NCBI GenBank assembly: GCA_947629305.1
Contig: CANRDD010000004.1
Span: forward strand, 1-41,088
Direction of reading: 5' to 3'
Length of the DNA stretch: 41,088 nucleotides
From: an uncultured Bacilli bacterium
GTDB taxonomy: Bacteria; Bacillota_I; Bacilli_A; RF39; UBA660
This document shows positions 19,957 through 41,088 of this stretch, in pieces. A program made the translations under genes and the position numbers. Each line of letters opens with the position of its first letter. Within the stretch, counting starts at the first letter, position 1. The notes under the pieces are model-generated. The model saw only the letters and a list, made by a program, of their open reading frames with translations, was not told the DNA's origin and made no database searches.

Positions 19957-21348
19957 GTGAAGAAAGTGTTTAAGCAATATGATTTTGAAAATAAACCTGT
20001 TGTTGATATTGTCAATGAAATGATTATAGATGCAATTAATCATAAAGCTTCCGACATTCACTTTGATCCAACGGAAGATACTTTAAATGTTCGAATTAGA
20101 ATAGATGGGGAATTATTAGAATATGCTAAAGTTCCTAGTTCTGTTAAGAAAAATTTATTAACAAGAATTAAAATAATATCTGGGATGAATATAACAGAAA
20201 CAAGATTACCCCAAGATGGAGCTATTAAAAATTTAGGAGAAGATATAGATCTAGATTTACGGGTTTCTTCCTTACCTATTGTTGATGGTGAAAAAATAGT
20301 TATTCGGATCCTTGATTATCGGATGAGTAGTGCTGGATTAGAAAACTTAGGATTATCACCAGTTAATTTAGAAAAAATAAAACATTTAATGGGTTTACCA
20401 AATGGAATTATTATGACCACTGGAGCTACTGGATCTGGTAAATCAACAACTGTTTATGCCATGTTACAAATATTAAATACCATATCAAGAAATATAATAA
20501 CTGTTGAAGACCCCGTTGAAATGAAAATACCGGGTATTAATCAAGTTCAAGTTATGAGTGAAATAGGTTTAACCTTTGGTAATACTTTAAGAAGTATTTT
20601 AAGACAAGACCCTGATGTTATAATGATTGGGGAAATAAGAGATACAGAAACAGCAAAAATTGCCGTTAGAGCATCAATCACAGGGCACTTAGTTTTATCA
20701 ACTATCCATACCAATAATTCTTTAAATACCATTGAACGTTTATTAGATATGGATGTAGAAAGATATTTATTAGGTTCCGCTTTAATGGGTATTATATCTC
20801 AAAGATTAGTTAAAAAATTATGTCCTTATTGCCGAGAAGCTAAAAATACAACCGATTATGAAAAAACATTATTTAAAAAAGCTTTAGGACAAGATGTTGA
20901 ACAAGTTTATGTTGCCCATGGTTGTGATAAATGTATTAATGGTTACAATGGAAGACTTGCTTTACATGAAGTATTAGTCTTAAATCAAGATATAAGAGAT
21001 GCTATTATTAATAATATTAGAAAAGAAGAATTAAGAGAATTAGTTTATAAAAAAGCTGGAACAATATCATTATTACAAGATGGATTAGAAAAAGTATTAC
21101 AAGGATTTACTACTATAGATGAAATATTAAGAGTTATAGATGTTGATTCAGACTTTGGTGATAGTGATACAGAAATAAAGAATGCCTTAATAGGAAAAAC
21201 AAAAGAAAATTATGCTAATATACCAACAATAGAAAATAATCAAGAAACATTAGAAGAACCTTTAATAGAAGAAACAGTTACTCCTGAAGTATTTGTTCAA
21301 CAAGTTATGGATGCTATACCAAGCGATAATAATATAGAAGCATTATAA
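19957..21348 (+). CDS. Type II/IV secretion ATPase (GspE/PilB/ComGA family)
   Basis: This is the hexameric assembly ATPase of type IV pili, competence pseudopili or type II secretion. Seen in the sequence: an N2 domain from residue 15 (DIVNEMIIDAINHKASDIHFDP), Walker A GATGSGKST (156-164), Asp box and Walker B (DVIMIGEIRD, about 220-229), the His box GHLVLSTIHTNNS, and a tetracysteine zinc knot C289/C292/C323/C326. The MshEN N1 domain of full-length PilB is absent, and a unique acidic tail of about 65 residues follows the core. Start is GTG 19957 with AAAGG upstream. No pilin, GspF or prepilin peptidase gene is adjacent, so it is an orphan within the window; it ends with a terminator facing the surface protein at 21430. 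Confidence 0.9.
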   Translation: MKKVFKQYDFENKPVVDIVNEMIIDAINHKASDIHFDPTEDTLNVRIRIDGELLEYAKVPSSVKKNLLTRIKIISGMNITETRLPQDGAIKNLGEDIDLDLRVSSLPIVDGEKIVIRILDYRMSSAGLENLGLSPVNLEKIKHLMGLPNGIIMTTGATGSGKSTTVYAMLQILNTISRNIITVEDPVEMKIPGINQVQVMSEIGLTFGNTLRSILRQDPDVIMIGEIRDTETAKIAVRASITGHLVLSTIHTNNSLNTIERLLDMDVERYLLGSALMGIISQRLVKKLCPYCREAKNTTDYEKTLFKKALGQDVEQVYVAHGCDKCINGYNGRLALHEVLVLNQDIRDAIINNIRKEELRELVYKKAGTISLLQDGLEKVLQGFTTIDEILRVIDVDSDFGDSDTEIKNALIGKTKENYANIPTIENNQETLEEPLIEETVTPEVFVQQVMDAIPSDNNIEAL

Positions 21349-26482: not shown

Positions 26483-27751
26483 TTACCCCTTTTCTATTTC
26501 TTTAACCATAGCTTTAACATTACCTTCATGTAATCTTATATCTATTATATCATTTTCTTTTAAATCTTTATTTGATTTAATTATTTTATTATCTATCGTT
26601 ACTAAAGAATAACCTTTTTCTAAGATACCTAAAGGATTAACTAATTTTAAAGTATTAACTAGTAAACTATATTTATTTCTTTTTTCATTAATTAAAGCTT
26701 TTGGATTTTGTAAAATATAAGATAATTTTATTTTATCTAATTCTTGTTCTTTTTTATTTAATATTATTTTAATATTATTATTTAAATTATCTATATATGT
26801 ATCTAATTTTTGCATTTTTATTTCATACATAGACATAGGACTTTTTAAAACATAACTATTTTTTAAATTTCTTAAATTAATAAATTTCGTATTAATATAA
26901 TTTTTAATAAATTTATTTGATCTTATTTTATAATTATCTAAAATATTATTTAGATCTAAAACAGTAGGAACAGCCATTTCCGCGGCACCAGTTGGAGTTG
27001 GAGCCCGAAGGTCAGCCACAAAATCAGCAATGGTCCAGTCAATTTCATGACCGACAGCACTAATGATGGGAGTCTTACATTCATAGATACTTCTAGCTAC
27101 AATTTCTTCATTAAAAGCCCAAAGGTCTTCAATTGAGCCTCCGCCTCTTCCGACAATAATTGTATCAACACCAAATTCATCAGCTCTTTTAATTTGTCTA
27201 ACAATATCTTTGCTAGCTTCCTTCCCTTGCACTAAACAAGGAAATAATATCGCTTCACACAAAGGATATCTTCTTTTAATGGTACTCATAATATCTCTTA
27301 CTGCTGCCCCAGTTGACGCGGTCACAACCCCAATTCTCTCAGGATATTTAGGTATTTTCTTTTTATGCAAAGAATCAAATAATCCTTCTTGGGCTAACTT
27401 TTTCTTTAACTTTTCAAATTCAATATATAAAGCGCCAATTCCATCAACTTCCATCTTATCAATATAAATTTGATAACTACCTTGCGCCGGATAAGCACTT
27501 AAACGCCCTTCCACCAACACATTCATTCCATCTTCTGGTTCAAATGTTAATTTAGAAGCACTAGATAAAAACATAACAGCACTTATTCTTGATGTATCAT
27601 CTTTTAACGTAAAATATAAATGTCCTTTGGTATGATTCTTAAAATTACTTATTTCCCCTTTTAAATATACTTTATTTAAAAACTTATCATTATCTAAAAT
27701 ACTTTTAATATAATTATTTATTTCACTTATTTTTAAATATTTATCTTTCAT
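26483..27751 (-). CDS. xseA: Exodeoxyribonuclease VII large subunit XseA
   Basis: XseA is the catalytic subunit of exonuclease VII, which degrades single-stranded DNA to oligonucleotides. An N-terminal OB-fold (about 1-105) includes VYLKGEISNFKNHTKGHLYFTLKD. The catalytic domain includes RIGVVTASTGAAVRDI, the key IIVGRGGGSIEDLWAFNEE at about 200-218, and SAVGHEIDWTIADFVADLRAPTPTGAAE in two parts at about 231-258. A coiled coil follows, and the C-terminus has ILEKGYSLVT. Length 422 is typical. It follows nusB by nine bases. Confidence 0.96.
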   Translation of the reverse strand: MKDKYLKISEINNYIKSILDNDKFLNKVYLKGEISNFKNHTKGHLYFTLKDDTSRISAVMFLSSASKLTFEPEDGMNVLVEGRLSAYPAQGSYQIYIDKMEVDGIGALYIEFEKLKKKLAQEGLFDSLHKKKIPKYPERIGVVTASTGAAVRDIMSTIKRRYPLCEAILFPCLVQGKEASKDIVRQIKRADEFGVDTIIVGRGGGSIEDLWAFNEEIVARSIYECKTPIISAVGHEIDWTIADFVADLRAPTPTGAAEMAVPTVLDLNNILDNYKIRSNKFIKNYINTKFINLRNLKNSYVLKSPMSMYEIKMQKLDTYIDNLNNNIKIILNKKEQELDKIKLSYILQNPKALINEKRNKYSLLVNTLKLVNPLGILEKGYSLVTIDNKIIKSNKDLKENDIIDIRLHEGNVKAMVKEIEKG

Positions 27752-40711: not shown

Positions 40712-40733
40712 AAAAAGAACCTATTCGGTTCTT
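40712..40733 (-). terminator. Intrinsic terminator of the surface-protein gene at the window edge
   Basis: AAGAACC and GGTTCTT form a 7-bp stem with a five-base loop, followed by T residues on the minus strand. It overlaps the TAA stop of the surface-protein gene. Confidence 0.7.
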
Positions 40734-41088
40734 ATTTGCCAAGAAAAATTGGCTTTTCATAGCTTCCGTCTCCTTCCAAATATTTTACCGTGGATTTCAG
40801 ATAGAAGGACGGGCGAACGCCAAACGCGAGTTCGACACTCTGGAGGTTCACGCGGCCATAGTAGCCGACAAACAGCGCACGATTGGAATGGTCCGAATAG
40901 CGGGAAATAGTCCATTCGTAAACGGCATTATATAGCCAATTCGCACTTCTATTTGTATCATTATTATAAGAACCTAAGTTTGTTTGCCAATTATCTTTAC
41001 TTGCGGCAAATCCATAGTCTGAGGCATACATTAATCCTACTTGGGCATTCACTGTCTTGGTTGTTGTTTGATAGCTTCCTTTTGTACC
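40732..41088 (-). CDS. Surface protein C-terminal domain, 5' part beyond window, GC-rich variable segment
   Basis: Only the last 118 codons are in the window; the frame stays open to position 41088, so the gene begins outside. The visible part matches the C-terminus of the protein at 21430: AQVGLMY, SDYGFAASKDNWQTNL, NRSANWLYNAVYEWTISR, GVRPSFYLKSTVKYLEGDGSYEKPIFLG (read in pieces). Between ISR and GVRPS are 26 residues unlike the paralogue. These codons (40822-40899) are 42 of 78 G+C and only 13 of 78 A on the coding strand, against a very AT-rich genome. The GTG at 41052 is not the real start. Surface location and domain role are inferred. Confidence 0.7.
   Translation of the reverse strand, partial: GTKGSYQTTTKTVNAQVGLMYASDYGFAASKDNWQTNLGSYNNDTNRSANWLYNAVYEWTISRYSDHSNRALFVGYYGRVNLQSVELAFGVRPSFYLKSTVKYLEGDGSYEKPIFLGK
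40822..40899 (-). other. GC-rich, A-poor variable segment of the surface-protein C-terminus
   Basis: Twenty-six codons between CGC (Arg) and GGC (Gly) of the flanks. About 54% G+C with codons such as GCG, CGC, GTC, GGC and CTC that are rare elsewhere in the window. The segment at the matching place in the paralogue (21517-21597) is 27 codons and unrelated residue by residue. Confidence 0.65.

Follow-up and report, generated by a model that had tools for sequence, protein, structure and literature searches.

A hypervariable C-terminal gene segment in an uncultured RF39 bacterium, probably a remote target of a diversity-generating retroelement

What process would leave a 78-base segment of one gene so rich in G and C, and so poor in adenine, within DNA that is 25.7% GC overall? 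The question is raised by a gene cut off by the end of the window, the whole of the 41,088-nt contig 4 of a 1.14 Mb assembly (68 contigs, 93.6% complete) from an uncultured Bacilli bacterium. We consider it very probable that the segment lies in the variable repeat (VR) of a target of a diversity-generating retroelement (DGR), more precisely of a remote (trans) target that is one of at least eleven sharing a single template type.

The variable segment and its paralogues

Direct base counting on the coding (minus) strand of the segment gives T23 C22 G20 A13, in exact agreement with the 42 of 78 G+C and 13 A given in the earlier note, and in a sliding count across the window 80 of 41,011 windows of 78 bases reach at least 42 G+C, most of them overlapping the segment. 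The only other spots with such stretches are 26959-26983 and 16884. The note's description of the surrounding gene as strongly AT-rich is borne out for the window as a whole but less so for the gene, as flanking codons in the target family are 35-44% GC and so less AT-rich than the remaining window. Its placing of the segment between conserved flanks near the gene end proved correct, the conserved C-terminal PIFLG end lying close by in the open frame (Table 1).

Table 1. Features of the DGR target locus and its family in the window (IMH function and terminator function are predictions)
Feature	Position	Strand	Basis
Hypervariable VR core (the reported segment)	40822..40899	-	codon positions 1 and 2 variable, third base C or T
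Variable repeat (VR), about 99 nt, ATTTCCCGC ... CGCCCG	40810..40908	-	paralogue codon alignment and template repeat matches in relatives
Conserved GC-rich 3' VR boundary GGCGTTCGCCCGTCCTTC, candidate IMH	40804..40821	-	alignment and relatives; function by analogy
Probable DGR target gene, C-terminal 118 codons, cut by contig end	40735..41088	-	open reading frame and eleven-copy paralogue family
Stop codon of the target gene	40732-40734	-	open reading frame
Terminator-like hairpin GAACC-GAATA-GGTTC, then T run, directly after the target stop codon	40705..40731	-	read from sequence; function predicted
Full-length family paralogue, 527 aa, N-terminal membrane segment	21430..23013	-	protein search and codon alignment

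A search of the assembly for genes sharing this C-terminal region, one of the checks proposed in the earlier note, was productive. Nineteen places were located by protein search, and besides the window copy ten of them give close alignments over the segment, at 72-88% protein or DNA identity, on ten other contigs and in some cases as complete genes in mid-contig. The codon alignment of these eleven copies shows conserved flanks and, between them, a block of variable NNT/NNC codons set amid perfectly or nearly conserved ones. Across the paralogues the segment has a GC fraction of 0.51-0.62 and an adenine fraction of 0.12-0.21, compared with 0.29-0.37 adenine in the flanks. Over the 18 hypervariable codons, pairs of copies differ on average by 0.637 at the first, 0.652 at the second and 0.079 at the third position, the opposite of the order produced by ordinary evolution, against 0.12, 0.11 and 0.14 in the 5' flank, and the third base is C in 100 cases, T in 88, A in four and G in one. 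Third positions differ by 0.08 over the VR and by 0.14-0.16 in the flanks, while the first two positions of constant VR codons show a difference of 0.02. Adenine accounts for 66 of 184 fixed columns in the flanks and for not one of the 41 in the VR (Fisher P = 1.8e-7).

A template of AAC and AAT codons randomised at every adenine would leave no fixed A and a series of NNY codons, exactly the pattern seen. The GC-rich, A-poor composition then follows, since the fixed scaffold consists of T, C and G and the former adenine positions are spread over four bases. Each VR has about 35 randomisable sites, at which sharing between copies averages 0.337, against 0.337 in column shuffles, with a longest shared run of six (shuffle mean 6.07); as neither sharing nor run length exceeds the shuffles, the copies were randomised independently. 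They also differ by a few whole codons, a point that weighs against the DGR reading and means that the template changed or that more than one existed. The VR-equivalent of the full-length paralogue in the window also departs from the eleven at positions that these have in common, marking it as an older or different-template member of the family. A type II/IV secretion ATPase gene (T2SSE, E 2e-121; 19957-21348) adjoins this paralogue and converges with it.

An N-terminal hydrophobic segment is present in the complete paralogues of this genome and in many relatives, and the targets of some relatives contain fibronectin type III domains. The C-terminal domain had been called C-type-lectin-like or DUF6273-like in the earlier note, and the second assignment is retained here in a weak form, with a match at E 0.035 that falls below the cut-off; DUF6273 is matched in 3 of 28 targets, and Pfam and NCBIfam offer no further name for the domain. 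Profile searches of the PDB found no relative of the variable domain, and an AlphaFold prediction from a single paralogue sequence without an alignment gave a pLDDT of 31, so that neither brought support for a C-type lectin fold. The protein is probably anchored in the membrane and would bind something at the cell surface through a variable face at its C-terminus.

This genome holds a second VR family, comprising L140 (G000:C43:9132-9263, minus strand) and L141 (G000:C28:262-393, plus strand), between which 28 VR codons show 7 first-position, 13 second-position and 1 third-position changes, compared with 8, 6 and 15 over 97 flank codons; a template for this family was not found in the genus. 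L142 (G000:C58, 4056-5045) encodes a related protein whose N-terminus is pilin-like and whose C-terminus is similar to the second type of template in the relatives; it lies between two open reading frames with weak N_methyl (prepilin) matches. A DGR-diversified minor pilin would be of interest if true.

Cassettes in genomes of the same genus

Most same-genus genomes contain a cassette made up of a target gene, an A-rich template repeat (TR), a MutS-like open reading frame, Avd and a reverse transcriptase (RT). In the best cassettes the order is target gene with VR, TR, MutS_I-like frame, Avd, RT and a small open reading frame, and in a second type the TR lies downstream of the RT (L117, L118, L120). 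The motifs IGNMTSQ and YMDD are the DGR form of the RT motifs, the counterpart in group II RTs being QGxxxSP. RVT_1 is matched in most genomes of the genus, and many of these RTs are 355-371 aa long with IGNMTSQ and YMDD, while several carry QGxxxSP. A profile of the genus DGR RTs has its best PDB match in 8ub7 'Reverse transcriptase' (E 4.5e-50), which we take to be the Bordetella phage DGR RT-Avd structure. Avd in the relatives is supported by NCBIfam (E 4e-7, below the curated cut-off), by Pfam bAvd (E 8e-4) and by conservation, and the MutS_I-like frame matches at E 1.2e-5, above the Pfam cut-off; MutS_I (PF01624) is already described among DGR accessory proteins (PMC10053308).

In the family as a whole, 138 of 291 sampled genomes, from 89 of 150 genera, have a match to the DGR-RT profile at E 1e-20 or better, an upper-side estimate as this threshold may admit some non-DGR RTs. 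RTs found on viral contigs with the same profile are distant, with 26-36% identity to the genus RTs in their best segments, and this viral set therefore gives no support to a recent phage origin of the latter. Cassettes decay within the genus, as DGR RT genes interrupted by stops or frameshifts (L116 at G001:C1, G014:C22 and G004:C15) indicate.

To relate these cassettes to the window copy, a template was inferred from the VRs of its own genome by placing A at the variable positions; it is a search query, not an observed sequence. It matches A-rich repeats beside RT genes in the relatives at 80-82% identity (up to 82% over 103 bases), and at most of the genus cassette loci examined a TR adjoins the RT. 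The VR span in Table 1 is defined by the match to these RT-adjoining repeats, and in the relatives the TR/VR match stops right after the conserved ...CCG; by analogy, the conserved GC-rich boundary is a candidate IMH. All VR copies end shortly before the stop codon, that is at the target C-terminus. A degenerate VR pattern gave three matches in a set of genome contigs that may leave out the window's own genome, all in Verrucomicrobia and Spirochaetaceae records, and none among viral contigs.

For seven cassettes that have a VR of their own alongside, template adenines are changed at 134 of 246 positions and other bases at 13 of 464 (P = 2e-59), which places 134 of the 147 TR-to-VR changes on adenines (A to G 63, to T 49, to C 22). 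Dispersed VRs in the same relatives show 430 of 828 adenines and 96 of 1448 other bases changed, the same trend over a higher background, in which some pairs may belong to other templates. We infer that the same adenine-randomising reaction made the window copy. In such a reaction the DGR RT would reverse-transcribe an A-rich TR, composed mostly of AAC and AAT codons, inserting random bases opposite A, and the resulting cDNA would take the place of the corresponding sequence at the 3' end of the target gene. With AAY at every target codon, positions 1 and 2 alone would be mutable and stop codons would never be created. The predicted products are surface proteins anchored at the N-terminus, with a binding face at the C-terminus that is randomised.

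The cassette absent from the assembly

The earlier note had stated that the window lacks an RT and a TR, and the lack extends to the whole assembly, in which neither the RVT_1 nor the DGR-RT profile finds an RT, Avd has no credible match (one, at chance level, lies inside a 477-codon frame) and no TR was found, near any of the eleven VR genes or elsewhere. Its search for a template beside an RT thus fails in this assembly but succeeds in the same-genus genomes, where A-rich TRs matching the inferred template stand beside DGR-type RTs. VR genes in this genome are mostly at or near contig ends (C4, C8, C21, C33, C46, C54, C56, C61, C63), and in the relatives the cassette lies behind a VR gene, so that the absence is most simply explained by a gap in assembly or binning, and it is in such a gap that the cassette serving the window copy probably sits. 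As none of the eleven VR genes has a TR nearby, an existing cassette would come with a further missing stretch. With most target genes at contig ends, it is probable that repeats of the family interrupt assemblies and so conceal DGR cassettes in drafts.

The main rival is that a DGR once diversified these genes and that its cassette has since been lost, leaving the VRs frozen. This would account for an assembly that yields no RT, Avd or TR, it has a precedent in the broken RT genes of relatives, and the third-position difference within the VR, although low, is not zero. That difference is nevertheless smaller than in the flanks, and together with the near-identity of the constant VR codons it suggests fairly recent rewriting, and with most VR genes at contig ends, assembly or binning can easily miss a cassette situated behind a further one; we therefore regard a relic as unlikely. 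It is decidedly improbable, in our judgement, that the at least eleven surface genes are under recent DGR rewriting in a chromosome that has neither RT nor template, with the machinery supplied by a mobile element or another strain.

Explanations that dispense with a DGR fare worse. Exchange of cassettes or gene conversion among silent and expressed copies, which the earlier note had offered as an alternative, is suggested by the many related copies in one genome, but the strong matches are all open frames ending at the conserved C-terminus, with no silent donors among them, and there are no mosaics, the sites assorting independently in runs no longer than in the shuffles; we give it very little credence. 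Nor do we think it at all probable that point mutation under strong diversifying selection produced the pattern. Selection would fit a variation that alters amino acids in a likely surface protein, yet it leaves unexplained the fixed third bases beside neighbouring sites occupied by all four bases, the A-free fixed columns and the match to RT-adjoining A-rich repeats. Contamination, misassembly or a transferred GC-rich domain might be suspected for a segment less than 300 bases from a contig end, but with ten copies of the same layout on other contigs, some of them complete and mid-contig, this is the least credible reading of all. DGR-type adenine-directed mutagenesis, which the earlier note had proposed, is thus upheld by the eleven paralogues with NNC/NNT codons and no fixed A, and by the same-genus cassettes with matching TRs.

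Relation to known systems

The arrangement resembles that of Treponema denticola, a host-associated bacterium with a chromosomal DGR in which one RT and TR serve up to seven remote target genes and one template type many dispersed C-terminal surface-protein VRs, and in which strains with targets yet without the core cassette are known (PMC4891356). It differs in having at least eleven targets of one type and a second VR family, and in its targets, whose domain is a different, DUF6273-like one and which, in the cases examined, begin with a membrane segment at the N-terminus. The genus cassettes hold a MutS-like frame together with Avd; the accessory gene of T. denticola is outside the comparison. 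With the DGR of Bordetella phage BPP-1 (mtd, avd, TR, brt) the system of the genus shares adenine-specific TR-to-VR change, a VR at the gene 3' end, an Avd homologue and a homologous RT (the 8ub7 match), but it resides in bacterial chromosomes rather than a phage, has targets in trans, and in the best cassettes of the genus places the TR upstream of both accessory frames and the RT.

DGRs with several VRs are common (PMC6642488). The main text of the Roux et al. 2021 catalogue, the part drawn on here, reports DGRs as enriched in Firmicutes and the human gut, with C-terminal VRs and membrane-bound cellular targets, and leaves RF39, Mollicutes, Bacilli and DUF6273 unnamed, although its supplementary tables may overlap with our set (PMC8144416). 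DGRs with several remote targets are therefore a known kind of system, and our literature search, whose reach stopped short of supplementary tables, found no paper on those of this lineage.

DGRs are, to our knowledge, the fastest targeted protein-diversification systems known in prokaryotes. The finding would make them a common chromosomal trait of a small-genome bacterial family, one that drives a repertoire of membrane-anchored proteins encoded at dispersed loci. Given about 35 randomisable sites in each VR and at least eleven targets, one genome could vary much of its surface, and the gain from such variation, whether in adhesion, phage escape or host recognition, is testable.
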